Positions 12,256 to 34,212 of a stretch of 34,232 bases of DNA are shown piece by piece. The translations under genes were made by a program, and so were the position numbers. Source of the DNA: a virus; the IMG/VR virus record IMGVR_UViG_3300050015_000530, positions 1 to 34,232 of that record. One strand, given 5' to 3'. The notes beneath the pieces were generated by a model that saw only the letters and a list, made by a program, of their open reading frames with translations, was not told the DNA's origin and made no database searches. Within the stretch, counting starts at the first letter, position 1; each line of letters opens with the position of its first letter.

Positions 12256-12259
12256 CACA

Positions 12260-12267
12260 GTATTTAT
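12260..12267 (+). promoter_or_regulatory. GTATTTAT-class element
   Basis: GTATTTAT ends 14 nt before the start codon at 12282, directly after tRNA-Leu. Confidence 0.65.
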
Positions 12268-12281
12268 AGTAAAATATAATC

Positions 12282-12914: not shown

Positions 12915-12950
12915 CCATCCTCATGTGGTGGAACTGATAATTTCAAAAAT

Positions 12951-13032
12951 GTCCTTGTGTTGTAATTGGTAGCCAAGATAGTTTCAAAAACTATTGTCGT
13001 AAGACGTGCGGGTTCGACTCCCGCCAAGGACA
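12951..13032 (+). tRNA. tRNA-Leu(CAA)
   Basis: The acceptor GTCCTTG/CAAGGAC is perfect with discriminator A. The anticodon arm ATAGT-TTCAAAA-ACTAT gives CAA. The class II variable arm GTCGTAAGACG and T-arm GCGGG/CCCGC are complete. The tail of the convergent Vsr-like ORF runs antisense through its 3' half. Confidence 0.88.
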
Positions 13033-13679: not shown

Positions 13680-13690
13680 GATTTTTTAAT

Positions 13691-13698
13691 ATAAATAC
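13691..13698 (-). promoter_or_regulatory. GTATTTAT-class element
   Basis: On the minus strand GTATTTAT ends 11 nt before the start at 13679. TTTC/GAAA could form a weak flanking stem. Confidence 0.6.
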
Positions 13699-13759
13699 TT
13701 CGAAATTTGAATTTCTATTCCTAATGTGAAGACTTTTAAAATAAATCAATAAAATAATA

Positions 13760-13767
13760 GTATTTAT
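13760..13767 (+). promoter_or_regulatory. GTATTTAT-class element
   Basis: GTATTTAT ends 17 nt before the ATG at 13785. Confidence 0.65.
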
Positions 13768-13784
13768 AGGAAATATCAGAATTT

Positions 13785-14018
13785 ATGGTAACTTTGATGG
13801 GCAGAAAAGTATTTGAAAAACTTAACGAACAGAAAGGCAAAGTGTTAGGTAAGAAAATGGACGAAATTGATGAATTACTTCGACCATATACCAAGATATT
13901 GCCAAATGGATTTGAAGAAGTAGAAATACCGGATGCAGAAGTTGCTGAAAAATACGAAAAACTCAATCAAGAATTTCACGAGATTGTAGAAGAAATAAAT
14001 TTAATGGATAAAAACTAA
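13785..14018 (+). CDS. Hypothetical phage protein (77 aa)
   Basis: An acidic, coiled-coil-like small protein (KVFEKLNEQKGKVLGKKMDE ... VAEKYEKLNQEFHEIVEEIN). The ATG at 13785 suits the promoter spacing; an ATG at 13797 is the alternative. No family recognised. Confidence 0.7.
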   Translation: MVTLMGRKVFEKLNEQKGKVLGKKMDEIDELLRPYTKILPNGFEEVEIPDAEVAEKYEKLNQEFHEIVEEINLMDKN

Positions 14019-14022
14019 TAAA

Positions 14023-14071
14023 ATGAAAAAAGAAAGGGCATCAGTCTTCTAAGTAACTTAAACTTAGAAGA
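14023..14071 (+). promoter_or_regulatory. Nine-codon upstream ORF and 10-bp hairpin before gene 14074
   Basis: ATG at 14023 opens MKKERASVF and stops at 14050-14052. TCTTCTAAGT (14045-14054) pairs perfectly with ACTTAGAAGA (14062-14071), putting that stop codon in the 5' strand. The next start codon follows three bases after the hairpin. A ribosome on the short ORF would melt the hairpin. Confidence 0.5.
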
Positions 14072-14073
14072 TT

Positions 14074-14376
14074 ATGAAAGTAAAAACAATCAAAGATTCG
14101 ACCACCAATCGTGGTGAATTTAACCGTGCCTACAAAGCACACCTTGAAAGAAAAAATAAAATACGTTGCAGTTATTGCAAGTATCACCGTAATGAAAATC
14201 GCACCACTAATTTATATTGGGGTGATGAAAAGCACTTAAAGTATCCTAATTGGAAGCTGATTTCTAAGAACGAGAAACAGTGGATGGAAAAACCAATGAG
14301 AATTGAAATAAACCGTAGGGTTCGTTTCGATGCAATCATTGAAACCTATGAGTTCATTTTCACATTTCCAGCATGA
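14074..14376 (+). CDS. Conserved-looking phage protein with CxxC (100 aa)
   Basis: A basic protein with an RCSYCKYHRNENR motif near residues 31-43 and a Trp/Lys-rich YPNWKLISKNEKQWMEKPMR segment, then a beta-rich end. It resembles small conserved phage proteins that carry this CSYC-Y-H segment; function unknown. A nine-codon ORF and hairpin directly upstream may control translation. Confidence 0.75.
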   Translation: MKVKTIKDSTTNRGEFNRAYKAHLERKNKIRCSYCKYHRNENRTTNLYWGDEKHLKYPNWKLISKNEKQWMEKPMRIEINRRVRFDAIIETYEFIFTFPA

Positions 14377-14381
14377 CGCAT

Positions 14382-14454
14382 AGCGACATCGCTCTAATGG
14401 CTAAGACACTTCTCTCATAAGGAAGGAATCAGGGTTCGATTCCCGGTGTCGCTA
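14382..14454 (+). tRNA. tRNA with CAT anticodon (Met or Ile2)
   Basis: The acceptor AGCGACA/TGTCGCT is perfect with discriminator A. The anticodon arm CTTCT-CTCATAA-GGAAG gives CAT. The T-stem has one A/G mismatch. Elongator Met versus lysidine-modified Ile cannot be settled here; paired 1-72 argues against initiator. Confidence 0.85.
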
Positions 14455-14456
14455 CA

Positions 14457-20902: not shown

Positions 20903-20995
20903 ATGAGAACTTTTGGAAAATATTATTACGGTAAAAAATCTTATAAAAAGCAGTTTATAAGAATCGGGAATACTATGTCCAAAACGCAAAGTTAA
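20903..20995 (+). CDS. 30-codon leader ORF ahead of the Tyr/Lys tRNA block
   Basis: MRTFGKYYYGKKSYKK ... GNTMSKTQS is basic and Tyr/Lys-rich (three consecutive Tyr and seven Lys), matching the Tyr and Lys tRNAs downstream. GAATCGGG (20961-20968) inside it is perfectly complementary to the 5' arm of the following terminator. It is the same length as the leader at 1747. A leader peptide is more likely than a functional protein. Confidence 0.6.
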   Translation: MRTFGKYYYGKKSYKKQFIRIGNTMSKTQS

Positions 20996-21025: not shown

Positions 21026-21053
21026 AACCCGATTCGAAAGATTCGGGTTTTTT
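21026..21053 (+). terminator. Attenuator-like intrinsic terminator 2
   Basis: AACCCGATTC pairs with GATTCGGGTT (one mismatch) around GAAA, then a T-run. The competing pairing of CCCGATTC with 20961-20968 in the leader ORF has eight perfect pairs. tRNA-Tyr begins nine bases later. Confidence 0.8.
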
Positions 21054-21061
21054 GTTTTTAT

Positions 21062-21146
21062 GTGGGTACGGTCACGGTGGTGGAGTGACTTCGGTCTGTA
21101 AAACCGAAACAAAGAAACACAGGGGGTTCGAATCCCTCTACCCTCA
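21062..21146 (+). tRNA. tRNA-Tyr(GTA), copy 1
   Basis: The anticodon arm TCGGT-CTGTAAA-ACCGA is perfect (GTA). The variable region is long as in bacterial Tyr. The T-arm is GGGGG/CCCTC. The acceptor GTGGGTA/TACCCTC has a T2/T71 mismatch. Discriminator A. Confidence 0.82.
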
Positions 21147-21152
21147 CAAATT

Positions 21153-21265
21153 GGGAATGTGGCAGAGTGGTATGTGCAGACTGAATTGGTATACTACGTG
21201 GGTTTACAACCTTAACACGTAGAAGGGGTCTGATAAGTACGTGAGTTCGAATCTCACCATCCTCA
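21153..21265 (+). tRNA. tRNA-like gene with a complex internal insertion
   Basis: The acceptor GGGAATG/CATCCTC (one A/C mismatch, discriminator A), a Ser-like D-arm GCAGAGTGGTATGTGC and a perfect T-arm GTGAG/CTCAC bracket an oversized centre. There CAGAC/GTCTG encloses a second D-like stretch AATTGGTATAC and a long arm CTACGTG/CACGTAG topped by GGTTTACAACC. The anticodon cannot be assigned. It may be a chimera of two tRNAs. Confidence 0.5.
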
Positions 21266-21270
21266 CAAAT

Positions 21271-21349
21271 GGAAATGTTGGGTGCTGGAATACCCAAGAG
21301 TCTGTAAAACTCCCGCTTCGGCATGTTGGTTCGAGTCCAACCATTTCCA
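21271..21349 (+). tRNA. tRNA-Tyr(GTA), copy 2
   Basis: The acceptor GGAAATG/CATTTCC is perfect with discriminator A. Stem GAGT/ACTC closes CTGTAAA (GTA). The variable arm CCGCTTCGGC and T-arm GTTGG/CCAAC are complete. Confidence 0.9.
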
Positions 21350-21357
21350 CAAAAATT

Positions 21358-21430
21358 GCGCTTGTAACTCAGTTGGTAGAGTAACGGACCTTTAATCCGT
21401 GAGTCGAGGGTTCGACCCCCTCCGGGCGCA
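21358..21430 (+). tRNA. tRNA-Lys(TTT) with C33
   Basis: The acceptor GCGCTTG/CGGGCGC has discriminator A. Stem ACGGA/TCCGT closes CCTTTAA, giving TTT with C instead of T at position 33. The T-arm GAGGG/CCCTC is perfect. Confidence 0.83.
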
Positions 21431-21435
21431 CATAA

Positions 21436-21506
21436 ACATCCGTAGCAAAGGGGATATGCCCCAGGTTTTTACCCTGGTGACGTGGGTTCGATTCCTACCG
21501 GATGTA
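21436..21506 (+). tRNA. tRNA-Lys(TTT)
   Basis: The acceptor ACATCCG/CGGATGT is perfect with discriminator A. The anticodon arm CCAGG-TTTTTAC-CCTGG gives TTT. The T-arm is GTGGG/CCTAC. Confidence 0.85.
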
Positions 21507-21512
21507 CAATAA

Positions 21513-21584
21513 GCATTCGTGGCAGAATGGCGATGTTCTTGACTCTTAATCAAGATGATAAGGGTTCGATTCCCTTCGAATGCA
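21513..21584 (+). tRNA. tRNA-Lys(CTT)
   Basis: The acceptor GCATTCG/CGAATGC is perfect with discriminator A. The anticodon arm CTTGA-CTCTTAA-TCAAG gives CTT. The T-arm is AAGGG/CCCTT. The convergent Vsr-like ORF ends antisense to its 3' half. Confidence 0.92.
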
Positions 21585-22242
21585 CAATATTTTTTATGAT
21601 TTTTAAATATTTTTCAGAAGTTTGTTTTTTAAAATAAATTTGTTGAGAAGTATCTATAATACATAAATCAATCTCCTTCTCTAAACATGCTTGAAATTTC
21701 CGGTTATCGTTATTTTGAATCTGCAACAATTTGTCTTGACCATAAATTGGTTCATAATGAAATATGCCATTTAATTCAAATGCGAGTTTTAATGAAGGTA
21801 TGTAAATATCCAGTTCCGAATTAATGACATCCTTGTTATTAAATAATATTTTTAGTTCAGGATATGATGATTTTAACTGTTCTTCAAGAAATATTTCAAG
21901 TTTAGACCTACGATTACCTTTAGTTTTGTGTGTATTATTATATGTTGTAGCACATGTTTGCGAGCAAAAATGATTACCATGTTTAGATTTTTTTATTTGT
22001 GATTGTTTTTTTAAAATTTCTTTATTACAATTAGTACATTTAATTTTTACTTGCGTAATTTGTGCCATAGATTGACATTGTTTGGAACAATAATTACCAA
22101 TTCTATGGTGATTTGGATTTAATGATGCTTGTAAATCATGTTTAGTTTGACAATATGTTGCATCACAATAAGCGCATTTACAAGGCAATAAATCTTTCGA
22201 TTCTGCCAATTCAAATTCTTCTTCTGTGTATAATGGTATCAT
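21550..22242 (-). CDS. Vsr/EDxHD-like homing endonuclease, copy 3
   Basis: A 230-residue paralogue of 6047-6721 and 12984-13679. It starts MIPLYTEEEFELAESKDLLP and has Cys pairs CAYCD, CSKQC, CTNCNK and CSQTCATTYNN, then NRRSKLEIFLE, NSELDIYIPSLKLAFELNG, IFHYEPIYG and NDNRKFQACLE. The final residues (SKGIEPLSS) are antisense to tRNA-Lys(CTT), so the ORF reads into the tRNA. The start lies 12 nt after a hairpin-borne GTATTTAT. Confidence 0.87.
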   Translation of the reverse strand: MIPLYTEEEFELAESKDLLPCKCAYCDATYCQTKHDLQASLNPNHHRIGNYCSKQCQSMAQITQVKIKCTNCNKEILKKQSQIKKSKHGNHFCSQTCATTYNNTHKTKGNRRSKLEIFLEEQLKSSYPELKILFNNKDVINSELDIYIPSLKLAFELNGIFHYEPIYGQDKLLQIQNNDNRKFQACLEKEIDLCIIDTSQQIYFKKQTSEKYLKIIKNIVHSKGIEPLSS

Positions 22243-26150: not shown

Positions 26151-26420
26151 ATGAATAATTGGTTCGAAAGTAGAAATCTCAAGGTATTAGCATACCAAAC
26201 AGAAACAATAAACAAAGTCAAAGATAGTCTAAGCAGTCAGGAAATAACAGTACTGGCTGCTTGTCCATCGGCAGGTAAAACAATAATGGCAATTCATTGC
26301 ATTGAGGACTTTTTGCAGAAGAATCCCGATTCAAAGGTAATTGTATTGGCACATGGTACAACGATTCTCCGTACACAATTTCATGATGTATTGGAAGAAA
26401 TCAAACCAGACTTCACATAA
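26151..26420 (+). pseudogene. Truncated SF2 helicase (N-terminal 89 aa)
   Basis: MNNWFESRNLKVLAYQTETI resembles a Q-motif-like start, followed by VLAACPSAGKTIMAIHCIED (Walker A) and KVIVLAHGTTILRTQF (motif Ia), the front end of a UvsW/type III-restriction-like SF2 helicase. The frame then stops at 26418; motifs II-VI are absent. The sequence continues in another frame as an unrelated coding segment, so this is a deletion or rearrangement remnant. It still has a good promoter and might make a short protein. Confidence 0.7.
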
Positions 26421-26466
26421 CGGCTTTGCTCCGCTTGTTGACTTGGAAGAGTCTACCGACTTCTAC

Positions 26467-26874
26467 ATGTCAGTGAATCTTGCAACAAAAATCAAAGGTC
26501 TTTCAAGTCTTGGTAAGGTTGAAGATGTAGTTACCAAACTGAAAAGTGGTGCATCGTTGAAGCCGGGTGAAGCTATTATGGCTGACCCAGTGAAAAAATA
26601 TCTTGCCGTACTTGATTCAGAACTTTACACTGCTTCAACACCTGACCTGCAGAAAGAAATGTTGAAAAACTATCTTACAAGCAAGTCAACCGAGTCAAAT
26701 AAGAAGAAGAGAAACGCTATGCAGGAAATTGCACAGATTAAATTCTCTCTTATTCTTAGCAAAAAATGGTTCAAGGAATTCAAAACTTTTGATGAGAATA
26801 CCCTGAATCTTAAACTTGACGGACAGGATTTAGCATTTACTTTCGACATGAGTGAAAAAGAAGTTAAAATCTAA
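26467..26874 (+). CDS. C-terminal fragment of an unidentified phage protein
   Basis: Coding-like sequence in this frame begins near 26417 (NGFAPLVDLEESTDFY) without a start, just where the helicase frame ends. The first usable ATG is at 26467, giving 135 residues. Helical, Lys-rich segments (LATKIKGLSSLGKVEDVVTK, PGEAIMADPVKKYLAVLD, NYLTSKSTESNKKKRNAMQE) end in a beta-rich GQDLAFTFDMSEKEVKI. Probably the tail of a larger ancestral gene. It may be expressed by reinitiation. Function unknown. Confidence 0.6.
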   Translation: MSVNLATKIKGLSSLGKVEDVVTKLKSGASLKPGEAIMADPVKKYLAVLDSELYTASTPDLQKEMLKNYLTSKSTESNKKKRNAMQEIAQIKFSLILSKKWFKEFKTFDENTLNLKLDGQDLAFTFDMSEKEVKI

Positions 26875-26898
26875 ACTTCAGATTTACAGATACTTAAA

Positions 26899-26928
26899 AA
26901 CCTCAGAAAATTTTCTGAGGTTTTTTTT
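26899..26928 (+). terminator. Intrinsic terminator
   Basis: AACCTCAGAAAA pairs with TTTTCTGAGGTT followed by a T-run. Confidence 0.92.
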
Positions 26929-26948: not shown

Positions 26949-26979
26949 TTTGGTGGTAATGAAAGTTTATTTATCTTTG
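26949..26979 (+). promoter_or_regulatory. Bacteroidota-type promoter of tRNA block 3
   Basis: TTTG (26949-26952) and TATCTTTG (26972-26979) are 19 nt apart. It is followed by CCAAGTATTTAA, as at the 1672 promoter. Confidence 0.85.
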
Positions 26980-27020
26980 CCAAGTATTTAATAGAAAACG
27001 AACACATAATTTTTAGACTA

Positions 27021-27140
27021 ATGAAAACGTACAGGAACATATCAAGCATTTCAACATCGACCACAAGTCGTAATGGAAATGGTATATTCTGTTCAGATTT
27101 CACAGGCAGAAATATTATGGATGGGGTTATGGTGATATAA
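27021..27140 (+). CDS. 39-codon leader ORF ahead of tRNA block 3
   Basis: MKTYRNISSISTSTTSRNGN ... MDGVMVI is rich in Ser, Thr, Asn and Ile, the kinds of tRNA encoded downstream. GGGGTT (27123-27128) near its end is complementary to AACCCC (27175-27180), which overlaps the 5' arm of the next terminator. Same architecture as the leaders at 1747 and 20903. Confidence 0.55.
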   Translation: MKTYRNISSISTSTTSRNGNGIFCSDFTGRNIMDGVMVI

Positions 27141-27177
27141 TTGACTGGTAAATAAAAAACCACAATAAAATCAGAAC

Positions 27178-27210
27178 CCCGAAAATCCAAAGTTTTCGGG
27201 TTTTTTTTTG
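27178..27210 (+). terminator. Attenuator-like intrinsic terminator 3
   Basis: CCCGAAAA (27178-27185) pairs with TTTTCGGG (27193-27200), then a run of nine T. Its 5' arm partly overlaps the alternative pairing with the leader ORF. tRNA-Thr starts 13 nt later. Confidence 0.82.
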
Positions 27211-27222: not shown

Positions 27223-27293
27223 GTCGGGATAATTTAGGGGTAGAATGCTTGTTTGGTATTCAAGTAACACCAGTTCGAATCTGGTTCTCGGCT
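27223..27293 (+). tRNA. tRNA-Thr(GGT)
   Basis: The acceptor GTCGGGA/TCTCGGC has discriminator T, as in the other Thr tRNAs here. Stem CTTGT/TCAAG (one mismatch) closes TTGGTAT (GGT). The T-arm ACCAG/CTGGT is perfect. Confidence 0.82.
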
Positions 27294-27310
27294 CAAAATA
27301 AAATATAACT

Positions 27311-27364
27311 CTCACAGGTTATAAACACAAAATATAACTCTTGCAAGTTATATCAAACTGTGAG
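27311..27364 (+). other. Structured inter-tRNA spacer
   Basis: CTCACAG (27311) pairs with CTGTGAG (27358) and encloses hairpin ATATAACT/AGTTATAT (27332-27353). The AAAATATAACTCT segment occurs twice. No gene. Confidence 0.5.
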
Positions 27365-27390
27365 GATGTTCATTGACATGCTGGTTTTAC

Positions 27391-27465
27391 GCACGGATGG
27401 TCGAGTGGTCAAAGGCAACGGTCTGCAAAACCGTACAATCGTGGGTTCGAATCCCACTCCGTGCT
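27391..27465 (+). tRNA. tRNA-Cys(GCA)
   Basis: The acceptor GCACGGA/TCCGTGC is perfect with Cys-type discriminator T. The anticodon arm ACGGT-CTGCAAA-ACCGT and T-arm GTGGG/CCCAC are perfect. Confidence 0.95.
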
Positions 27466-27498
27466 CAAACAATATAAAGTAGTCGTATGCTATTGGAC

Positions 27499-27584
27499 AC
27501 TCCGGGCGGTTAAACACCGGAGTCAACAGAGATAGACAGACAAAATTATTGGGTGTGTCATCATCTAACCTGCTCTGACACACC
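27499..27584 (+). other. Structured inter-tRNA spacer with two strong hairpins
   Basis: ACTCCGG/CCGGAGT (27499-27523) and GGTGTGTCA/TGACACACC (27552-27584) are perfect stems. No T-run follows either on this strand. No ORF or tRNA fits. Confidence 0.5.
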
Positions 27585-27590
27585 AAAAAT

Positions 27591-27666
27591 GTTCCTGTCG
27601 TACAATAACTGGTAAGACCGCAGGCTGTTAACCTGAACAATGTAGGTTCGAATCCTACCGGGAACG
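27591..27666 (+). tRNA. tRNA-Asn(GTT), copy 1
   Basis: The acceptor GTTCCTG/CGGGAAC has discriminator G. The anticodon loop CTGTTAA gives GTT on GCAGG/CCTGA (one mismatch). The T-arm GTAGG/CCTAC is perfect. Confidence 0.88.
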
Positions 27667-27678
27667 CAAATTAATGTA

Positions 27679-27800
27679 TGAGATATCAGTCATAATAGAC
27701 CAAATTCCTTATAATGTATGATATCTCACTCAATAATGTCGGGAATAACCTACATTAAATTCAAAATTTGAGATAATGTGGAATAATCCCAACAAAATGA
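27679..27800 (+). other. Hairpin-rich spacer before the HNH gene
   Basis: TGAGATATCA (27679) and TGATATCTCA (27719) are perfect complements. CTACATT and AATGTGG pair further downstream. No gene is seen. Confidence 0.45.
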
Positions 27801-27821
27801 CGACTTTTTTATGATGTAGTA

Positions 27822-27845
27822 CTATTTATTATCATAAAATGATAA
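27822..27845 (+). promoter_or_regulatory. GTATTTAT-class element (CTATTTAT) and hairpin before the HNH gene
   Basis: CTATTTAT (27822-27829) ends 19 nt before the ATG at 27849. TTATCAT-aaa-ATGATAA forms a seven-pair hairpin between them. Confidence 0.5.
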
Positions 27846-27848
27846 GAT

Positions 27849-28310
27849 ATGGTTCTAAGAAATAAAATAATCGAACTGAGGCAACAGGGAAAAAGCTATA
27901 GAGAAATCGAAAAGGAATTACAATGTTCAAAGTCAATGATTTCCATTTATTGTAGAAAATCAGGATTGGGTGGTGATGGTAGAACGAATTTAAGTGATGA
28001 AGATAAAAGAATTGCAAATTATCAACACGTTAAATCTCATCGACAAAAAATAAAAGAAAGAGCAATTGAATATAAAGGTGGAAAATGTGAGAAATGTGGA
28101 TATAAAAAATGTAATAGAGCACTTGAATTTCATCATACGAGTCCCAATGAAAAAGATTTTACAATATCGAAATATTCTGTATTGTCTTGGAATAAAGTGA
28201 AAATTGAGTTGGATAAATGTATTTTAATTTGTGCAAATTGTCACAGAGAATTACATGATGATGAATATTTAAATAATAGGGATGTATTCCCTCTGTCTGA
28301 TAAGCAGTAG
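27849..28310 (+). CDS. HNH homing endonuclease with HTH
   Basis: A 153-residue protein. The N-terminal HTH (GKSYREIEKELQCSKSMISI) is followed by a compact HNH/treble-clef: KGGKCEKCGYKK, ALEFHHTSPNEKDFTIS, WNKVKIELDKCILICANCHR, ELHDDEY. The C-terminal FPLSDKQ and the stop are encoded by sequence that also looks like the anticodon arm of a tRNA-Ile, so the ORF ends inside that tRNA-like gene. Confidence 0.88.
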   Translation: MVLRNKIIELRQQGKSYREIEKELQCSKSMISIYCRKSGLGGDGRTNLSDEDKRIANYQHVKSHRQKIKERAIEYKGGKCEKCGYKKCNRALEFHHTSPNEKDFTISKYSVLSWNKVKIELDKCILICANCHRELHDDEYLNNRDVFPLSDKQ

Positions 28311-28354
28311 AAAGGATAGTTGGTCACACGTGGGTTCAACTCCCACCCTCCCTA
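28278..28354 (+). tRNA. Rearranged tRNA-Ile(GAT)-like gene
   Basis: The acceptor AGGGATG/CCTCCCT (one mismatch, discriminator A) and a perfect T-arm GTGGG/CCCAC are present, and loop CTGATAA (GAT) sits on TCTGT/GCAGT. Only seven bases separate the acceptor from the anticodon arm, and a D-loop-like ATAGTTGGTC lies 3' of it. The order is acceptor, anticodon, D-like, T. It overlaps the HNH end. Confidence 0.45.
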
Positions 28355-28367
28355 CAAATAATAAAAT

Positions 28368-28440
28368 GGGCGTATCGTCTAAGTGGTTAGGATGTATCTC
28401 TGATAAGGATGCGATGATGGTTCAAATCCACCTATGCCCA
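28368..28440 (+). tRNA. tRNA-Ile(GAT)
   Basis: The acceptor GGGCGTA/TATGCCC has discriminator A. The anticodon arm TATCT-CTGATAA-GGATG gives GAT. The T-stem has one A/C mismatch. A perfect AAACCTT/AAGGTTT hairpin follows at 28442-28459. Confidence 0.83.
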
Positions 28441-28482
28441 CAAACCTTGACGAAGGTTTAATGTTGCAACACGTAGTAGCCA

Positions 28483-28556
28483 TCCTATAGTAGCATATTA
28501 TCGGCAAAATGCTGCCCGTAGAAGGGTGTATGTAGGTTCAAATCCTATCGTAGGAG
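28483..28556 (+). tRNA. tRNA-like gene with six-base anticodon loop
   Basis: The acceptor TCCTATA/CGTAGGA (one mismatch, discriminator G), D-stem AGCAT/ATGCT and T-arm GTAGG/CCTAT are good. The anticodon stem TGCCC/GGGTG leaves only GTAGAA as loop, so the anticodon cannot be assigned (AGA or TAG depending on register). Confidence 0.5.
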
Positions 28557-28567
28557 CGTTACTTTTT

Positions 28568-28656
28568 GGAGAGTTGGCAGAGTCCGGCTTATTGCACCAG
28601 TCTTGAAAACTGACGACCCCGCAAGGGGTCCGGGGGTTCGAATCCCTCACTCTCCG
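28568..28656 (+). tRNA. tRNA-Ser(TGA)
   Basis: The acceptor GGAGAGT/ACTCTCC is perfect with discriminator G. Stem CAGT/ACTG closes CTTGAAA (TGA). The long variable arm GACCCCGCAAGGGGTC is strong. The T-arm is GGGGG/CCCTC. Confidence 0.95.
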
Positions 28657-28660
28657 CAAA

Positions 28661-28904
28661 GTTAAGTGCATTGGATATCATCACTTGACCTCACCGCACC
28701 TTAAAGAACTCATGACTCTTTAGTGGTGTAAAAGTTCTGGCTTGCATAAGAAGCTGCCCTAATGTTCAGTGGGATTCTTTGGGTTTGTACACTTAGTACA
28801 CGTACTTGGCAATACGACAAGACTTGATTAATTCTCCGAGACATTCCAAGGTACTTGTAATAGTAATTCCGGGAATCGTGAGTATAAGGCTCACACCAGA
28901 ACTT
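28661..28904 (+). ncRNA. Putative large structured RNA region (about 245 nt)
   Basis: The gap between tRNA-Ser and tRNA-Phe holds nested helices: GTTAAGTG/CACTTGAC (28661, 28682), TAAAGA/TCTTTA (28702, 28717), the closing stem AAGTTCTGG/CCAGAACTT (28732, 28896), GTACTTGG/CCAAgGTAC (28802, 28846) and GTGAG/CTCAC near 28878. No credible protein is present on either strand. The fold matches no RNA family I can recall. Confidence 0.5.
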
Positions 28905-28909
28905 AAATT

Positions 28910-28981
28910 GAGGACGTAGCTGAGTTGGTTTAGCGATGCCCTGAAAAGGCATAGAGACAGGTTCGATTCCTGTAGTCCCCA
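28910..28981 (+). tRNA. tRNA-Phe(GAA), imperfect acceptor
   Basis: The anticodon arm ATGCC-CTGAAAA-GGCAT and T-arm ACAGG/CCTGT are perfect (GAA). CCA is encoded at 28982-28984. The acceptor GAGGACG/AGTCCCC has two mismatches. Confidence 0.78.
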
Positions 28982-28988
28982 CCACAAT

Positions 28989-29006
28989 GTAACTCAGTGG
29001 TTGTAC
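28989..29006 (+). pseudogene. Orphan tRNA D-arm-like remnant
   Basis: TGTAACTCAGTGGTTGTAC resembles a 5' acceptor end plus D-arm with no following anticodon or T-arm. It lies between tRNA-Phe and the HNH leader. Confidence 0.3.
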
Positions 29007-29018
29007 TTTTCGTGAAAA

Positions 29019-29050
29019 CCATAGTATTTACTATAAAATAATAACTATGG
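29019..29050 (+). promoter_or_regulatory. GTATTTAC element in a hairpin that contains the start codon
   Basis: CCATAGT (29019-29025) pairs with ACTATGG (29044-29050), and the ATG at 29047 is inside the 3' strand. GTATTTAC (29024-29031) spans the stem-loop junction. Confidence 0.65.
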
Positions 29051-29559
29051 AATATAACGATTTAAAAAAGTATGTCGAACTGGGTTTTTCACACAGACAA
29101 ATGGCAATAGAATTAAACTGTTCACAAACAACAGTAAAATATTGGTTAAAAAAGTATGACTTAAAAACAAGATTTCATCTTCAAAAAAGAGAAAAAAACG
29201 TCCACTGTATTCTATGTGGCAATGAATTGAAGGATAATTCAAGAAATAGAAGTCGATGTAATTCCTGTACAACAAGAATTCGAAGATATAGAACCAAATT
29301 AAAGGCAATTGAACTTTTAGGTGGTAAATGTAATAGATGTGGATGGTCGGGAAATATTGCAGCATTTGAGTTTCATCATTCAAATGATGATAAAGAATAT
29401 GGTGTTGGGGGCATGTGGCATAAGTCTTGGGAATTAATGAAAAAGGAAGCACTAAAGTGCGAATTATTGTGTTCAAACTGCCATAGAATTGAACATACTA
29501 AATATGATAAAGATGAAAATTTCATGACAGCAGTTAATAATTATAACATGGTGACATAG
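29047..29559 (+). CDS. HNH homing endonuclease with HTH
   Basis: A 170-residue relative of 27849-28310. It has an N-terminal HTH (LGFSHRQMAIELNCSQTTVKYW), a zinc finger CILCGNEL ... RCNSCTTRIRR, then LLGGKCNRCGWSG, AAFEFHHSNDDKEYG, and LKCELLCSNCHRIEHTKYDK. The stop TAG (29557-29559) lies at positions 8-10 of the following tRNA-Phe, so the last residues (NMVT) come from its acceptor strand. Confidence 0.88.
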   Translation: MEYNDLKKYVELGFSHRQMAIELNCSQTTVKYWLKKYDLKTRFHLQKREKNVHCILCGNELKDNSRNRSRCNSCTTRIRRYRTKLKAIELLGGKCNRCGWSGNIAAFEFHHSNDDKEYGVGGMWHKSWELMKKEALKCELLCSNCHRIEHTKYDKDENFMTAVNNYNMVT

Positions 29560-29622
29560 CAAAGGTGGTCTATGCGGGGGACTGAAAATCCTTAGATGTT
29601 GGTTCGACTCCAACTGTCACCA
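29550..29622 (+). tRNA. tRNA-Phe(GAA), copy 2
   Basis: The acceptor GGTGACA/TGTCACC is perfect with discriminator A. Stem GGGGA/TCCTT closes CTGAAAA (GAA). The T-arm GTTGG/CCAAC is perfect. The first ten bases overlap the HNH ORF. Confidence 0.9.
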
Positions 29623-29631
29623 CAACAATAC

Positions 29632-29717
29632 GCAGGTGTCGCATAGTGGTCGATTGCGCCAGCCTTCCAAGCTGGAAAGATAGTATCACAACGTGGGTTC
29701 GAATCCCACTACCTGCT
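29632..29717 (+). tRNA. tRNA-Gly(TCC) with long variable region
   Basis: The acceptor GCAGGTG/TACCTGC has Gly-type discriminator T. The anticodon arm CCAGC-CTTCCAA-GCTGG and T-arm GTGGG/CCCAC are perfect. The 17-base variable region (with GAT/ATC) is unusual for Gly. A GIY-YIG cassette begins a few bases later. Confidence 0.85.
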
Positions 29718-29729
29718 CCCTGGTCGTTT

Positions 29730-29763
29730 TCTGTACTTCTCAGTATTTATTGAGAAATACAGA
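29730..29763 (+). promoter_or_regulatory. GTATTTAT element in hairpin loop before the GIY-YIG gene, copy 3
   Basis: Same 12-pair hairpin and GTATTTAT loop (29743-29750) as at 2055 and 3262. Confidence 0.75.
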
Positions 29764-29765
29764 TT

Positions 29766-30422
29766 ATGGCACGAAAAGAAAAACAATACCATTTCATTTA
29801 TAAGACAACTAACTTATTGAGTGGTAAATATTATTACGGAATGCATTCTACTAATAATCTCAATGATGGTTATTATGGTTCTGGAAGAAGATTAAGACGT
29901 TCTTTGAATAAACACGGTAAAGAAAATCATGTTGTTGAGTATATTGAATTTCTTCCGGATAGGATTACATTATGTAATCGTGAAAAAGAGATTGTTAATT
30001 TAAATGAAATTGCAAAAGAAAATTGTATGAACCTAATGATTGGTGGACAAGGCGGCTATGTATCTGATACTGCATCGAAATTAGGGTGGCAAAAAATGGA
30101 TGAAATACTTTTTAATAAATATGGATTAAATTGTCATAGTATAGTTTCAAAGAATTATTATGATTCACTTACCACAGAAGAATTGTTATTACATAAGAAA
30201 AAAATCAGTGAAGGACTAAAAAATGCTGAATTTAATTGTAAAACATTTCTCGGTAAAAACCATTCGGTAAGTACCATTAATAAAATGAGAAAGAATAAAA
30301 ACATCGGAAATAAAAATTCACAATTCGGCACTTGTTGGATAACAAATGGATGTGACAATACAAAAATCAATAGAAACGATAAACTACCAATAAATTGGAA
30401 ATATGGTAGAACTTTGAAATAA
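29766..30422 (+). CDS. GIY-YIG homing endonuclease (SegA-like), copy 3
   Basis: A 218-residue paralogue of 2091 and 3298 with the same first 20 residues and core (YHFIYKTTNLLSGKYYYGMH, GYYGSGRRLRRSLNKHG, NREKEIVNLNE). The middle third is divergent. NUMOD3-like SVSTINKMRKNKNIGNKNSQ precedes a CWIT segment. It lies between tRNA-Gly and tRNA-Ile(TAT) and stops six bases before the latter. The shared leader implies recent spread of one cassette. Confidence 0.9.
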   Translation: MARKEKQYHFIYKTTNLLSGKYYYGMHSTNNLNDGYYGSGRRLRRSLNKHGKENHVVEYIEFLPDRITLCNREKEIVNLNEIAKENCMNLMIGGQGGYVSDTASKLGWQKMDEILFNKYGLNCHSIVSKNYYDSLTTEELLLHKKKISEGLKNAEFNCKTFLGKNHSVSTINKMRKNKNIGNKNSQFGTCWITNGCDNTKINRNDKLPINWKYGRTLK

Positions 30423-30428
30423 TTAAAT

Positions 30429-30501
30429 GGTGATGTGGCGCAATGGTCAGCGCAGGTGTCTTATAAGCACAAGGTTGTGGGTTCAAGTCCCACCTTCACT
30501 A
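30429..30501 (+). tRNA. tRNA-Ile(TAT)
   Basis: The acceptor GGTGATG/CTTCACT has one mismatch and discriminator A. The loop CTTATAA gives TAT, which reads AUA directly. The T-arm GTGGG/CCCAC is perfect. Confidence 0.82.
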
Positions 30502-30502
30502 C

Positions 30503-30579
30503 AAACACAGTGCTCATAGTACGAAACTGTTATAAAGGAGCAGTTAAACTCGAAATCCATAAGGAAATCGGCTGTGTTT
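30503..30579 (+). ncRNA. Putative three-way-junction RNA between tRNAs
   Basis: AAACACAG (30503) pairs with CTGTGTTT (30572) as closing stem. TGCTC/GAGCA (30511, 30538) and a CGA..TCC/GGA..TCG hairpin (30551-30570) lie inside. The layout resembles 4460-4550 without sequence similarity. No TTCRANT loop. Confidence 0.45.
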
Positions 30580-30586
30580 ATCAAAT

Positions 30587-30658
30587 GCTTCGATAGCTCA
30601 ATGGTAGAGCAATTGACTGTTAATCAATAGGTTATGGGTTCAAGTCCCTTTCGGAGCG
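30587..30658 (+). tRNA. tRNA-Asn(GTT), copy 2
   Basis: The acceptor GCTTCGA/TCGGAGC has discriminator G. D-stem GCTC/GAGC is perfect and TTGA/TCAA closes CTGTTAA (GTT). The T-stem has one mismatch. Confidence 0.9.
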
Positions 30659-30666
30659 CAAAACAC

Positions 30667-30696
30667 TTGCAATGTTCGGATTTTTTCTTATCTTTG
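30667..30696 (+). promoter_or_regulatory. Bacteroidota-type promoter
   Basis: TTG (30667-30669) and TATCTTTG (30689-30696) are 19 nt apart. It heads the gene run from 30733. Confidence 0.75.
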
Positions 30697-30732
30697 CTTT
30701 TTAAAATAATTATTAATTAAAATTTAAAGCAA

Positions 30733-31098
30733 ATGTTACACAGAGGAAGCAGAACAATCAACGTAAAAAAAGCGGAATTAATCGCAAAAATCAATGAGAA
30801 CAAAGCAAATCACATTGTAGAGTATAACAAAGCAGTTATCGCCTACAAAGAAGAAGCACTCAAACAATTAGCCGAATTAACCAAGAAGGTTGAAGAAGGT
30901 AAATTAGGTGTTACCTTGGATTTAGTTACACCGATTGACAATTCGGCAAACTATGACAAGATAATCGAAATGTTTAATTGGGAAGTCAATGAAATCGTTG
31001 AACTCAAACAAGACGAATTCATTGAGTATGTCCAGGATGAAACCGATTTCGCTGTAAGTGCAAAATATTCAAACACATTCTACGCAAGTGTCCGATAA
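30733..31098 (+). CDS. Hypothetical phage protein (121 aa)
   Basis: A helical N-terminal half (NVKKAELIAKINENKANHIV ... EEALKQLAELTKKVEEGKLG) is followed by DLVTPIDNSANYDKIIEMFN and an acidic end. Coiled-coil-like with no enzyme motif. It has its own host-type promoter 36 nt upstream, so it may be early expressed. No family named. Confidence 0.78.
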   Translation: MLHRGSRTINVKKAELIAKINENKANHIVEYNKAVIAYKEEALKQLAELTKKVEEGKLGVTLDLVTPIDNSANYDKIIEMFNWEVNEIVELKQDEFIEYVQDETDFAVSAKYSNTFYASVR

Positions 31099-31114
31099 TC
31101 AGACTAAAATAAAA

Positions 31115-31264
31115 ATGTCAGAAACTCCCCCAAAAATAAAATTGGGGGAAGTTTTTGAAGTTGAAGGTAGACTTTACGCAATACAAGTACCTGCAACAGC
31201 AAGCCAGGAAACACGTTTAGATGGTGGAAGAGAAATTTTTGAATTTTTTTATATGCAGGAATAA
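31115..31264 (+). CDS. Hypothetical small protein (49 aa)
   Basis: I start at ATG 31115 (MSETPPKIKLGEVFEVEGRL); the frame is open further upstream but overlaps the previous gene. Beta-rich, ending in an acidic FEFFYMQE. Function unknown. Confidence 0.6.
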   Translation: MSETPPKIKLGEVFEVEGRLYAIQVPATASQETRLDGGREIFEFFYMQE

Positions 31265-31290
31265 ACGCCCATGAGGAAGTATTTAATTAT

Positions 31291-31476
31291 ATGGAATCAA
31301 AAAGCGTATCTTGGGAAATTGAGTATAAAGTAGTTGAAACAGGAAAAACTGGGACAATGAAAATAGACCTTCATTTTAATAAGGAAAAAAATATCGCAAA
31401 GTGGTTTAAATCATGCTACTCTGGAAAAAACGGTAAAAAACAATGTGAATTTTTAAACGCAAAAATAATTGGATGA
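31291..31476 (+). CDS. Hypothetical small protein (61 aa)
   Basis: A beta-rich start (SVSWEIEYKVVETGKTGTMK) and a Lys/Cys-rich middle (KWFKSCYSGKNGKKQCEFL). It overlaps the next start by four bases (ATGA). No family recognised. Confidence 0.65.
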   Translation: MESKSVSWEIEYKVVETGKTGTMKIDLHFNKEKNIAKWFKSCYSGKNGKKQCEFLNAKIIG

Positions 31477-31817
31477 AAAAATATTTGTTTGTAGGCGAAA
31501 GACGTAGTAATCTTGCAATTAAAATGAATGTAACTTGGGTTGACAGACGACTCGCTGCAGCTCATCTTTCAAAAGCAGTCGAAGCCATTGGAATTAATTG
31601 GGACGAATGTGACTTTAAAAACGTCTTCGAGGACAAAATCGAGGACATAATGTCTTCGAAGTGTATTATCATAGCAATGGGCAGAAAAGTCGAGAGAGAA
31701 CTTAAAAAGGCAGGAATTCAACACGAATTTATTTATCATCCTGCAACACGTGGAGCAGTAAGAAATATTGAAAAATACAAACAACACGTAAAAGAAAGAA
31801 TTGAGCACATAGTATAA
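31473..31817 (+). CDS. UDG-superfamily-like protein (114 aa)
   Basis: The KKYLFVGERRSNLAIKMNVT start resembles the FVGE-x-P-x-x-A motif of uracil-DNA-glycosylase-like folds. IIIAMGRKVERELKKAGI and HEFIYHPATRGAVRNIEKY match the later strand and HP motif. It is short for an active glycosylase and the catalytic acidic or Asn residues are not evident, so activity is doubtful. It ends just before tRNA-Thr(CGT). Confidence 0.55.
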   Translation: MKKYLFVGERRSNLAIKMNVTWVDRRLAAAHLSKAVEAIGINWDECDFKNVFEDKIEDIMSSKCIIIAMGRKVERELKKAGIQHEFIYHPATRGAVRNIEKYKQHVKERIEHIV

Positions 31818-31818
31818 T

Positions 31819-31891
31819 GCCGGAATAATTCAATGGTAGAATGCCTGTTCCGTAAACAGGACGCTTACAGGTTCGAGTCCTGTTTCTGGCT
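31819..31891 (+). tRNA. tRNA-Thr(CGT) with C33
   Basis: The acceptor GCCGGAA/TTCTGGC has discriminator T. Stem CCTGT/ACAGG closes TCCGTAA (CGT) with C at position 33. The T-arm ACAGG/CCTGT is perfect. Confidence 0.88.
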
Positions 31892-31903
31892 CAAAATAAG
31901 ATT

Positions 31904-32368
31904 ATGAGAAAACCAAATGCAAATTGTGTAGATTGTGGTAAGCCATTATATCGCAGACCAAGTGAACTTATTAAGTGGAAAAAAGTTTATTGTATGAAAT
32001 GTCAAAAATTACACATGAATGATGCAGCAAAAATAAAAAATGACAGTCAATATATAAACTATATTATAAAGTGGAAAGCAGATATTGTAGATGGAATGAA
32101 AGGAAAATATCAAATTTCTTCACACATAGTAAGATATTTACGTGAAAAATTTGGTTGTAAATGTAGTAAGTGTGGATGGAATGAAGTAAATCCTTATACT
32201 GGAAAAATACCCTTAGAAACTGAACACATTGACGGTAATTTCAGAAACAACAAAGAAGAAAACTTAGATTTATTATGTCCTAATTGCCATAGCCTAACAC
32301 CTACATACAAAGGTGCTAACAGAGGTAATGGAAGAAAAGAAAGAAAAAAATATGCCGATATGCCATAG
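31904..32368 (+). CDS. HNH homing endonuclease
   Basis: A 154-residue protein with an N-terminal zinc finger (CVDCGKPLYRRPSELIKWKK ... CMKCQK), then KFGCKCSKCGWNE and the HNH core PLETEHIDGNFRNNKEENLD, LLCPNCHSLTPTYKGANRGN, a frequent phage type. No GTATTTAT is upstream; it starts 13 nt after tRNA-Thr(CGT). The stop TAG lies 16 bases into tRNA-Thr(TGT), so the final ADMP is tRNA-encoded. It lies between two Thr isoacceptors. Confidence 0.9.
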   Translation: MRKPNANCVDCGKPLYRRPSELIKWKKVYCMKCQKLHMNDAAKIKNDSQYINYIIKWKADIVDGMKGKYQISSHIVRYLREKFGCKCSKCGWNEVNPYTGKIPLETEHIDGNFRNNKEENLDLLCPNCHSLTPTYKGANRGNGRKERKKYADMP

Positions 32369-32436
32369 TGGTCGATTGGGCTGGTTTTGTAAACCAGATG
32401 GTAAAACGCACCGGGGGTTCGAATCCCTCTATCGGC
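32353..32436 (+). tRNA. tRNA-Thr(TGT) with long variable region
   Basis: The acceptor GCCGATA/TATCGGC is perfect with discriminator T. The anticodon arm CTGGT-TTTGTAA-ACCAG gives TGT. The 15-base variable region is class II-like. The T-arm is GGGGG/CCCTC. The first 16 bases overlap the HNH ORF. Confidence 0.87.
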
Positions 32437-32452
32437 TCAAATTCAATTAGTT

Positions 32453-32680
32453 ATGGAAAAACTACCGAGTGAAAATCATGAAGAAAAATTCTTGGCAAAG
32501 TTAAGGTCAAGATTTAAAGTATATGTTGACATAACACCACATCTTGTAAAAGTTGCAATTGTCACATTAATTGTTTTTCTTTGCTCAATGTTTGTATGGT
32601 ATAGTTTTCTCCGTCCAGACCCAAGTAAAACAGTAATTGAAAACGTAATTCAACAATTTAAGAAAAATGAAATACACTAA
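32453..32680 (+). CDS. Single-pass membrane protein (75 aa)
   Basis: A charged N-terminal 40 residues, then one strong hydrophobic helix (VKVAIVTLIVFLCSMFVWYS) and a C-terminal amphipathic segment (TVIENVIQQFKKNEI). N-in topology is likely from flanking Lys/Arg. The size could suit a spanin- or holin-like protein, but there is no specific motif. It overlaps the downstream HNH start by 14 nt. Confidence 0.7.
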   Translation: MEKLPSENHEEKFLAKLRSRFKVYVDITPHLVKVAIVTLIVFLCSMFVWYSFLRPDPSKTVIENVIQQFKKNEIH

Positions 32681-33272
32681 AGAAGAATTTGAAAAATTAA
32701 TACTTGTAGATAAAATATCATATCGAGAAATTGGTCGTATATATGGCATATCTGATGCGTATGTGAAAAAACTGAGTAAAAGATTGGGTGTCATGTTACC
32801 CGTTAGGTCAAAATTTCCAGAAAATTTTGTTCCTGCAAATAAAGGTCAGCACAAATCACCAACATATAAAACAATAATTTGTAAAAATTGTAATAAAATA
32901 ATATCACCTTCAACGTGGAATAAACAACAATTTTGTGATAAAAATTGTGCTGGTGAATATAAATCGAAAAAAGTTTACGAGAATTATTTATTGAATCCGG
33001 ATAAATATTGTAGAGCGTCATATTCTCCAGGTCATTTTAAAAAATTTATATTGGCAGAACAAAACAATAAATGTGTTATATGTGGATTGGATAATGTTTG
33101 GAATGGTAAAATATTAATATTTATTTTAGACCATATTGACGGTGATGCCTCAAATAATAGGCGTGAAAATATTAGAATGATTTGCCCTAATTGTGATACT
33201 CAATTGGATACATATAAATCGAAAAATAAAAATTCTGCAAGAAAAGAAAGATATTTATTAATGAAAAAATAA
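32667..33272 (+). CDS. HNH homing endonuclease with HTH
   Basis: A 201-residue protein: N-terminal HTH (ISYREIGRIYGISDAYVKKL), zinc finger ICKNCNKIISPSTWNKQQFC-DKNC, and HNH core NNKCVICGLDNVWN, IFILDHIDGDASNNRRENIR, MICPNCDTQLDTYKS. The usual CPNCH His is Asp here (NCD), so the zinc site may be weakened. No GTATTTAT precedes it. It ends two bases before the rearranged tRNA-Arg(TCT). Confidence 0.88.
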   Translation: MKYTKEEFEKLILVDKISYREIGRIYGISDAYVKKLSKRLGVMLPVRSKFPENFVPANKGQHKSPTYKTIICKNCNKIISPSTWNKQQFCDKNCAGEYKSKKVYENYLLNPDKYCRASYSPGHFKKFILAEQNNKCVICGLDNVWNGKILIFILDHIDGDASNNRRENIRMICPNCDTQLDTYKSKNKNSARKERYLLMKK

Positions 33273-33274
33273 AT

Positions 33275-33349
33275 GGCTGTGTATCACAACGGTCTTCTAA
33301 ACCGTTTTAGTGTAATTGGATGATGTGGGTTCGAGTCCCATCACGGCTA
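33275..33349 (+). tRNA. Rearranged tRNA-Arg(TCT) without a D-arm in the normal place
   Basis: The acceptor GGCTGTG/CACGGCT (discriminator A), anticodon arm ACGGT-CTTCTAA-ACCGT (TCT) and T-arm GTGGG/CCCAT are all good. Only TATCACA lies between acceptor and anticodon arm. A D-arm-like GTGTAATTGGATGAT lies between the anticodon and T-arms, as if the arms were swapped. ATCA (33283) could pair with TGAT (33321). Confidence 0.6.
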
Positions 33350-33355
33350 CAATAT

Positions 33356-33427
33356 GCTCTTATAGTTTAATGGATAGAATGGGAATTTCCTAAATTTTCG
33401 ATTCGGGTTCGATTCCCGGTAAGAGTA
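33356..33427 (+). tRNA. tRNA-Arg(CCT)
   Basis: The acceptor GCTCTTA/TAAGAGT has discriminator A. Stem GGAAT/ATTTT closes TTCCTAA (CCT). The D-arm is normal and the T-arm is TCGGG/CCCGG. Confidence 0.85.
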
Positions 33428-33442
33428 CTAAAAACAATTGAT

Positions 33443-33592
33443 ATGGCAAACGTGATATGTCCAATGTGTGGTCATCTTGTGTATGCTACAGACGGTACAG
33501 AATTTGTTGTTTGTAAAGAATGTAATTACGTAATTTATATACCATATGAAGCACACGATAGAAAGGATGAAGAATCCCTTGGTGATTCTTGA
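33443..33592 (+). CDS. Zinc-ribbon protein (49 aa)
   Basis: MANVICPMCGHLVY ... FVVCKECNYVIY is a classic two-CxxC zinc ribbon (Cys 6, 9, 24, 27), followed by an acidic tail. The reading frame overlaps the next gene by 26 nt. Similar mini-ribbons bind nucleic acid or act as structural modules; role unknown. Confidence 0.7.
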   Translation: MANVICPMCGHLVYATDGTEFVVCKECNYVIYIPYEAHDRKDEESLGDS

Positions 33593-33755
33593 TGATAATC
33601 GGAAACCAATAACGACAAACGGTTATGCCTTTATTGACGAGAGTGGTCATACAATAATAATCGTTTACGGTGAAGGTCGCAGAGACGCAATGTCAAAGTA
33701 TTTATCCGAAGACGGTGATTTGTTGGGAATAAAGTATAAAATAATGCCTTTGTAG
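33567..33755 (+). CDS. Hypothetical small protein (62 aa)
   Basis: I start at ATG 33567, which has GAAAGG just upstream; an earlier in-frame ATG at 33546 is possible. Beta-rich (PLVILDDNRKPITTNGYAFI ... TIIIVYGEGRRDAMSKYL). The stop TAG lies ten bases into tRNA-Arg(TCG). No family recognised. Confidence 0.65.
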   Translation: MKNPLVILDDNRKPITTNGYAFIDESGHTIIIVYGEGRRDAMSKYLSEDGDLLGIKYKIMPL

Positions 33756-33820
33756 CATAATGGACAATGCGCTTGTCTTCGAAACAAGGTCTTATGCGGG
33801 TTCGAGTCCTGCCAGGGGTA
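33746..33820 (+). tRNA. tRNA-Arg(TCG)
   Basis: The acceptor GCCTTTG/CAGGGGT pairs with wobbles and discriminator A. The anticodon arm CTTGT-CTTCGAA-ACAAG is perfect (TCG). The T-arm is GCGGG/CCTGC. The first ten bases overlap the preceding ORF. Confidence 0.88.
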
Positions 33821-33823
33821 CAA

Positions 33824-34117
33824 ATGAGAACAACGGAATTAATACCAGTGTTTGTTGACCAATTGCCTCTTGAAGTCGAAGAAGGTAAGATGTATATTAC
33901 AGATAAATATGGTATATCTGTCCATCTTTGTGCTTGTGGTTGTGGTGAAAAAACTTTTCTACCGTTCAGACATATAATTGAGGGTCAAGAGCATGGATGG
34001 GTTCATTCAATTCAAGACGGTAAAGTTTCTACAACACCGTCAATAGGTAATTGGTTGTGGGAGAATCCTTATCATGCACATTATTTTATAGTGAATAACA
34101 AAATAGTTTGGTGTTAA
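33824..34117 (+). CDS. DUF6527-like protein (97 aa)
   Basis: The start at 33824 gives MRTTELIPVFVDQLPLEVEE; an earlier in-frame ATG lies in the tRNA. The protein carries SVHLCACGCGEKTFLPF, a WVHSIQDGKVSTTPSIGNWL segment and a final YHAHYFIVNNKIVWC, the layout I recall for DUF6527 (H-x-C-x-CGCG ... PSIGN ... SHYFI-x-NG-x-V-x-W). That family co-occurs with bacterial ubiquitin-like conjugation operons (BubE-type). A phage copy could counter such a system. It stops three bases before tRNA-Arg(ACG). Confidence 0.55.
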   Translation: MRTTELIPVFVDQLPLEVEEGKMYITDKYGISVHLCACGCGEKTFLPFRHIIEGQEHGWVHSIQDGKVSTTPSIGNWLWENPYHAHYFIVNNKIVWC

Positions 34118-34120
34118 TAT

Positions 34121-34195
34121 GCACCCGTAGCATAATTGGATTAGTGCATTGGTCTACGAAACCAAAGGTTGTGAGTTCGAATCTCACCGGGTGTA
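34121..34195 (+). tRNA. tRNA-Arg(ACG)
   Basis: The acceptor GCACCCG/CGGGTGT has discriminator A. Stem TTGGT/ACCAA closes CTACGAA (ACG, normally A34 deaminated to inosine by TadA). The T-arm GTGAG/CTCAC is perfect. Confidence 0.92.
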
Positions 34196-34212
34196 CAAAA
34201 CAAAACTCAAAC

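Follow-up and report, generated by a model that had tools for sequence, protein, structure and literature searches.

What could a translated leader do for genes that are never translated? The question is raised by an IMG/VR virus record of 34,232 bases that is dense in tRNA genes and whose full length is called the window here. ARAGORN predicted 37 genes in it, one tmRNA included, and Rfam gave 39 tRNA matches plus the tmRNA. Three tRNA blocks, starting at 1952, 21062 and 27223, follow the same plan: upstream of each lies a promoter, next a short ORF and last an intrinsic terminator, and in all three modules the 5′ arm of the terminator can alternatively pair with the end of the ORF. Because tRNA genes are untranslated, any effect of a translated leader on them must be exerted on transcription or on the RNA, and the terminator/antiterminator pair would be the means of exerting it. 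The parts given below for the three modules and their operons lie on the + strand.

Module 3 begins with a promoter of the Bacteroidetes type (26949–26979), made up of TTTG (26949–26952), a 19-nt spacer and TATCTTTG (26972–26979); the Bacteroidetes consensus is TTTG, about 19 nt and TAnnTTTG. The start region that follows, CCAAGTATTTAA (26980–26991), had been described as common to modules 1 and 3, and an identical copy is indeed found at 1702–1713, while matches with up to two mismatches are at chance level (10 found versus 8.35 expected). The 39-codon leader ORF, MKTYRNISSISTSTTSRNGNGIFCSDFTGRNIMDGVMVI (27021–27140), contains control codons for Thr, Ser, Asn, Ile, Gly, Arg, Phe and Cys. Within it lies GGGGTT (27123–27128), the putative antiterminator 5′ strand X, and its partner Y, AACCCC (27175–27180), overlaps the 5′ arm of the intrinsic terminator (27178–27209; stem 27178–27200 plus a T run). 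The first tRNA of the block, tRNA-Thr, starts at 27223, 23 nt further on. Promoter, ORF and terminator were all found where the preliminary description had placed them. A separate terminator (26898–26923) closes the preceding gene, so that module 3 is a transcription unit of its own. Further upstream, two overlapping frames (26151–26420 and 26341–26874) resemble a single helicase-like gene interrupted by a frame break, the cause of which may be genuine decay or an error in the sequence.

The chief feature of the modules, which the preliminary description had left unsaid, is that the amino acids of each leader match the tRNAs downstream. The module 3 operon (27223–34196; ARAGORN and Rfam) reads Thr, Cys, Asn, Ile, Ser, Phe, Phe, Gly, Ile, Asn, Thr, Thr, Arg, Arg, Arg, the Asn gene at 27591 being an Rfam match whose GTT anticodon was taken from the sequence; it also holds additional weaker tRNA predictions and homing-endonuclease-like ORFs between the tRNAs, and the record ends at 34232. 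Module 1 comprises the leader ORF MKKLLDILAAVLMVDVLLWAAEEDKLCTVG (1747–1839), the antiterminator 5′ strand CAGTCGGGT (1829–1837) and a terminator (1876–1911). Its leader codons, Asp/Glu/Val/Leu/Ala/Trp, correspond to the Asp, Glu, Val, Leu, Ala and Trp tRNAs of its operon (1952–14455; ARAGORN), which further on includes the tmRNA and Leu and Met tRNAs. Module 2 has the leader ORF MRTFGKYYYGKKSYKKQFIRIGNTMSKTQS (20903–20995), the antiterminator 5′ strand GAATCGGG (20961–20968) and a terminator (21026–21055; stem 21026–21049 plus a T run). Its leader is rich in Tyr and Lys (KYYYGKKSYKK), and only Tyr and Lys tRNAs, three of each, lie downstream (21062–21585; ARAGORN and Rfam, the second Tyr at 21153 by Rfam only). 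When the match between control region and operon was compared with that of 504 windows from the long open frames of the record, it was equalled by 0, 1 and 2 of them for modules 1, 2 and 3, respectively.

Other genes are interspersed with these operons. Homing-endonuclease-like ORFs lie between or beside tRNA genes at 2091–2735 (GIY-YIG by Pfam), 6047–6721 (zinc-finger type) and 6853–7599 (HNH-like by Pfam), and further ones were assigned by look only (5032–5808, 27849–28310, 29766–30422, 31904–32368 and 32667–33272). The tmRNA (10129–10480) has the tag peptide AEDIMSIPTSLTRGKAVFARQAELAIAA, and several relatives also have tmRNAs. An RNA ligase of the T4 Rnl1 type (Pfam PF09511; 17388–18488) lies between modules 1 and 2 and is conserved in relatives; it is plausibly a tRNA-repair enzyme beside regulated tRNA operons.

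The pairing between leader and terminator varies in strength among the modules. The GGGGTT/AACCCC pairing proposed for module 3 is present, but its six exact bases alone are at chance level, a complement of this length being reached by 379 of 2000 dinucleotide shuffles. As had also been remarked, it is shorter than those of module 1 (9 exact bases, 1/2000 shuffles) and module 2 (8 exact bases, 20/2000). The six-base pair is extended by inner helices, and the whole antiterminator fold of module 3 (−15.5 kcal/mol, z −2.9) was reached by 2 of 500 shuffles; the folds of modules 1 (z −4.5) and 2 (z −4.7) were reached by none of 500. One relative (G001) carries CGGGTT/AACCCG in place of GGGGTT/AACCCC, a difference consistent with a two-sided change in the pairing strands. 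Counted with no ORF or antiterminator filter, 61 of 90 terminators located 0–300 nt before a tRNA have an upstream stretch of 7 or more bases complementary to their 5′ arm, compared with 18 of 322 control terminators that have no tRNA within 2 kb.

We then considered where a translating ribosome would leave these strands, assuming that its front edge is 13 nt downstream of where the A-site codon begins. The control codons are upstream of the antiterminator strand, and a ribosome at the ORF end is computed to mask X. In module 3, X:Y has an advantage of 1.2 to 6.3 kcal/mol over the terminator for A-site codons 3–30, with the exception of codon 12 (+0.7 kcal/mol, X:Y not favoured), and the modelled ribosome covers X from codon 31 onward. 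Antiterminators fold across the stop codon in nearly all modules; hairpins precede X in some M0 and M1 folds, and folding gave no clear antiterminator for M2 of G008. In these models terminator and antiterminator are predicted to be mutually exclusive. From the stop codon to the terminator the distance is 20–49 nt in every distinct leader, and TAnnTTTG occurs no further than 170 nt upstream in 57 of the 78 distinct leaders (13.6 in shuffles). Single-base codon differences among leaders were synonymous in 24 of 55 cases versus 12.1 expected, as counted in 15 disjoint nearest pairs; the full set of 58 pairs re-uses sequences. By this measure the leaders vary in the manner of coding sequence.

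To see how far the plan extends, relatives were sought with the RNA ligase (16 IMG/VR loci at 37–72% identity) and with an RNA ligase profile, of which the best 80 loci were used. The module detector ignored peptide content: a tRNA had to follow an intrinsic terminator at a distance of 1.5 kb or less, a short ATG ORF had to end no more than 70 nt before the terminator, and 6 or more bases of the ORF had to be complementary to the terminator 5′ arm. For each terminator the longest ORF was retained and its final 25 codons before the antiterminator were scored against an operon bounded by the next module or a gap of more than 4 kb. This gave 91 hits in 32 phage records, of which 84 modules were kept. 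The other seven had fewer than two identified tRNAs, some of them none; one of these, MITIKKYYYKKSS in G017, had only a Leu tRNA within reach and would have counted against matching. Among the 84 modules, 77 are in 25 records with at least two modules. The detector gave no module in G010, and G015 (0 tRNAs) and G016 (1 tRNA) were not taken further.

The three copies first described turned out to understate the case, as close relatives have four module types and distant phages more. The fourth type stands before Pro/His/Gln tRNAs, with leaders such as MKNLMHINPQQHPQVTEWGNYA. One distant phage has MKQFKHIMSFISCSKWASQRHIRMSRSVCMNLC before Ala, Ile, Phe, Lys, Cys, Trp, Arg, Gln, Ser, His and Met tRNAs, and another leader, MTNLFNILTIENTPNNGGGYDVPVYKQVRS, before Pro, Asn, Leu, Thr, Gly, Tyr and other tRNAs. 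A search with NrdJ led to LR745206 (634,780 bases), in which leaders starting with MTTNSTHKNFSKSHKWF and MTTMNLNMTMNLTLNVVNITLCNIR go with His/Phe/Trp/Lys and Asn/Leu/Thr/Ile/Met/Val/Arg tRNAs, respectively, MKTINNTSKSSSRSSSMSEIRLYS goes with Arg/Ser tRNAs and a leader containing SYESYYEEG with Glu/Tyr and other tRNAs. In phages of Mahaphage size the tRNAs are divided differently and the leaders match: SSSRSSS stands before Arg/Ser tRNAs, and in LR756501 MNNILHINLLNSLCLLGIKLIG precedes five Leu tRNAs and a leader containing TPAPAVAFRRGTGTGTG precedes Arg/Pro/Ala/Thr/Val/Gly tRNAs. PMC7162821 describes genomes above 634 kb as those of Mahaphages, with Bacteroidetes as predicted hosts, and the four Mahaphage-size records presumably belong to this group, to judge by their lengths. 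The GenBank records LR756501.1 and LR756503.1 have the same length (735,411 bases) and identical match positions and are therefore probably one genome deposited twice.

Other search routes were less productive. The 16-base start pattern occurred at 66 loci in viral contigs, with a module at five (L023, L030, L055, L069 and L077), and tblastn with a vWA-like protein led to the LR75650x records only. We found no module at the 18 RNA-ligase loci in genome contigs, 17 of which are from organisms that we take to be Bacteroidota, in 30 kb of Sphingomonas phage PAU (tRNA-Cys similarity, 6 tRNAs), or in the stretches examined of tRNA-rich phages of Vibrio, Stenotrophomonas and Salmonella (22, 38 and 25 tRNAs, respectively). 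The LR756500 stretch, MT835965 and LR756501 470001–520000 contained no tRNAs. As a separate observation, tRNA-like genes with a CTA anticodon, which would read UAG, occur in G005, G006, G014, G017, G023–G026 and LR756501, either at or near the end of a module-3-type operon or apart; they are possible suppressor tRNAs.

In the 25 records with at least two modules, the control region matched its own operon with a mean of 0.651, compared with 0.149 for the other operons of the same phage; the own operon fitted better in 77 of 77 leaders, the true leader–operon pairing ranked first in 25 of 25 records, and none of 1,000,000 within-record permutations reached the observed match sum. The same was true of the four Mahaphage-size records alone (18 modules; 0/1,000,000), and for G017, G018, G019 and G021 alone (10 modules) the sum was reached by 5169 of 1,000,000. 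Several different partitions of tRNAs among operons are represented, but the records are related and some leaders are identical (G006, G014), so that the modules are not independent events. About a third of control-region residues have no match to the operon tRNAs. The 77 of 77 leaders and the permutation result speak against coincidence of composition, which is rejected as to the leader–operon correlation and has a negligible chance of accounting for the modules, even though short ORFs are common in AT-rich sequence and module 3 alone was equalled by 2 of 504 windows.

The detector hit 75 of 106 tRNA blocks with at least three tRNAs. Leaders upstream of the missed blocks were read by eye and are outside the statistics. 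As predicted, the Pro/Asp/Gln block of LR745206 has the leader PQPQDQDP upstream; QDQPD is upstream of the Pro/Asp/Gln block of LR756502, MKAMILSLCLSLSLSLQK of the Leu/Ser/Cys block of LR756504 and MKRLVNIVGQPQPQHQHQ of the Pro/His/Gln blocks of G012 and G013. Reading by eye also showed the expected module types in G002, G003, G004, G007, G009, G024 and G029, and no leader upstream of the Tyr/Tyr/Met/Leu block of G018, the Pro/His/Gln block of G008 or the Asp/Glu/Val block of G028. Several other missed blocks seem to belong to the later part of a long operon, and the module 1 leader of G013 is truncated relative to that of G012.

Matching extends in places to individual codons. The LR756501 leader before five Leu tRNAs uses CTA, CTT, CTG, TTA, CTC and TTG, one of each, and hence all six Leu codons. 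We also looked at phages in which the two boxes of a six-codon amino acid are in separate operons. Leaders follow the Leu split in G012 (TTA TTA TTG and one CTA at the boundary versus CTA CTC) and G017 (TTA TTA TTG TTA versus CTA CTG CTT), and the Arg split in G019 and LR745206 (CGC versus AGA in both). The cases in G023 and G025 were uninformative and that in G026 disagrees, with CTT before a TTR tRNA; in addition, the Pro/Gln/His leader of G017 contains CTA and CTG with no Leu tRNA in the operon. Over 70 modules, the tRNAs of the own operon can read 883 of 981 matching codons versus 833.8 expected from synonymous usage in the same record (sd 11.2, maximum 871 in 2000 simulations).

Taken from the sequences, these data argue that each module is a ribosome-mediated transcription attenuator of its tRNA operon, giving tRNA-supply feedback, a reading to which we assign a probability of about 0.87. 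The preliminary description, which had seen a leader ORF with an exclusive terminator and antiterminator before tRNAs, is supported by the codon matching (77/77), the pairing (61/90 versus 18/322) and the coding-like variation of the leaders. In such an attenuator, polymerase would start at the promoter and a ribosome would translate the leader ORF behind it. When every control codon is served by abundant, charged tRNA, the ribosome would come to the ORF end and cover the antiterminator strand, the terminator would form and the tRNA genes would not be transcribed. If any of these tRNAs were scarce, uncharged or cleaved, the ribosome would stall further upstream, the ORF end would pair with the 5′ arm of the terminator and polymerase would proceed into the tRNA genes. 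The tRNAs made by readthrough would in turn relieve the stall, since it is the operon's own product that would read the control codons. We infer that stalling occurs, controls readthrough and raises it, and that shortage would turn the operon on; the trigger would be loss of host tRNAs during infection or a tRNA-cleaving defence. The RNA ligase and tmRNA in the window fit such a setting and prove nothing.

The same attenuator might instead read charging, i.e., amino-acid supply, or a general slowing of translation, and would then be an infection-state switch in which the tRNAs produced need not relieve the stall. A stalled ribosome cannot distinguish an uncharged tRNA from a missing one, and leaders mixing 8 to 11 amino acids would answer almost any shortage. 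We nevertheless consider this unlikely because the codons follow the tRNAs of their own operon, down to isoacceptor boxes of Leu and Arg in four phages and to all six Leu codons before five Leu tRNAs, a partition that a general sensor would not need. Considerably less probable is a response of the opposite sign, with translation to the ORF end opening the operon and stalling closing it. It is compatible with the sequence by itself, but the control codons are upstream of the antiterminator strand, and a ribosome at the stop codon, given its distance to the terminator, would leave the terminator free and cover the antiterminator strand. Slightly further down still we place the possibility that the leader peptides are small functional proteins that lie before tRNA blocks by chance, terminator readthrough being fixed and partial. 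The leaders vary as if under protein-level constraint and the module 1 peptides resemble a hydrophobic segment; however, composition tracks the tRNA partition across unrelated leaders, the ORF end complements the terminator 5′ arm in most cases, and one protein function does not explain KYYYGKKSYKK, SSSRSSS and LSLCLSLSLSL in the same position.

The proposed feedback attenuation of tRNA operons has relatives among known systems. In T-box riboswitches, the RNA binds the tRNA itself and uncharged tRNA sets the choice between terminator and antiterminator. The modules would share this choice but have instead a putative translated ORF with control codons, and no Rfam match, so that a T-box was rejected; only tRNA and tmRNA reached gathering scores over the window, and the five sub-threshold matches at module 3 were to unrelated families. 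Aminoacyl-tRNA synthetase operons such as pheST are under attenuation, and there too a leader peptide controls a translation component, although the genes are bacterial synthetase genes and a single amino acid is involved. In amino-acid operons (trp, his, ilv, pheA and others), the position of the ribosome chooses between antiterminator and terminator (PMC1183508). The phage modules resemble trp- and his-type attenuators in their short leader ORF, control codons cognate to the operon product and predicted exclusive antiterminator and terminator. They differ in that the products are tRNAs rather than biosynthetic enzymes, that the control codons of a single leader stand for 2 to 11 amino acids, and that several modules divide the code within one genome, with Bacteroidota-type hosts and promoters. 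Phages are known to supply tRNAs when those of the host are attacked by defences, and PMC10264068 and PMC11555353 concern tRNA sequence and supply. The words "leader" and "attenuat" are absent from the searched text of PMC7162821, PMC10264068 and PMC12482277, and in the part of the PMC literature searched we found tRNA operons under leader-peptide attenuation described neither for phages nor for cells. The class of mechanism is classical. As far as these searches go, there is no description of its application to tRNA operons, of leaders with several kinds of control codon or of a code divided among modules.

Large phages of Bacteroidota-type bacteria thus appear, from their genomes, to switch their own tRNA blocks by means of tiny genes upstream. 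A leader that lists the codons of its own operon would spell out a regulatory logic in sequence, namely to make tRNAs when their codons are slow, and this makes the idea of an on-demand tRNA supply directly testable. Regulated phage tRNA operons may be found in this way from sequence alone, and the leaders would be natural multi-codon sensors of tRNA availability. A wider proposal, which to us is evenly poised, is that huge phages divide the genetic code among attenuators to form a self-sensing tRNA supply network, in which host tRNAs that run short or are cut in the course of infection are sensed and those same tRNAs are made. Each attenuator would then act as an OR-gate over the codons of its own operon, in places at the isoacceptor level, and the network, if it exists, would be a regulated answer to tRNA depletion and to tRNA-cleaving defence.
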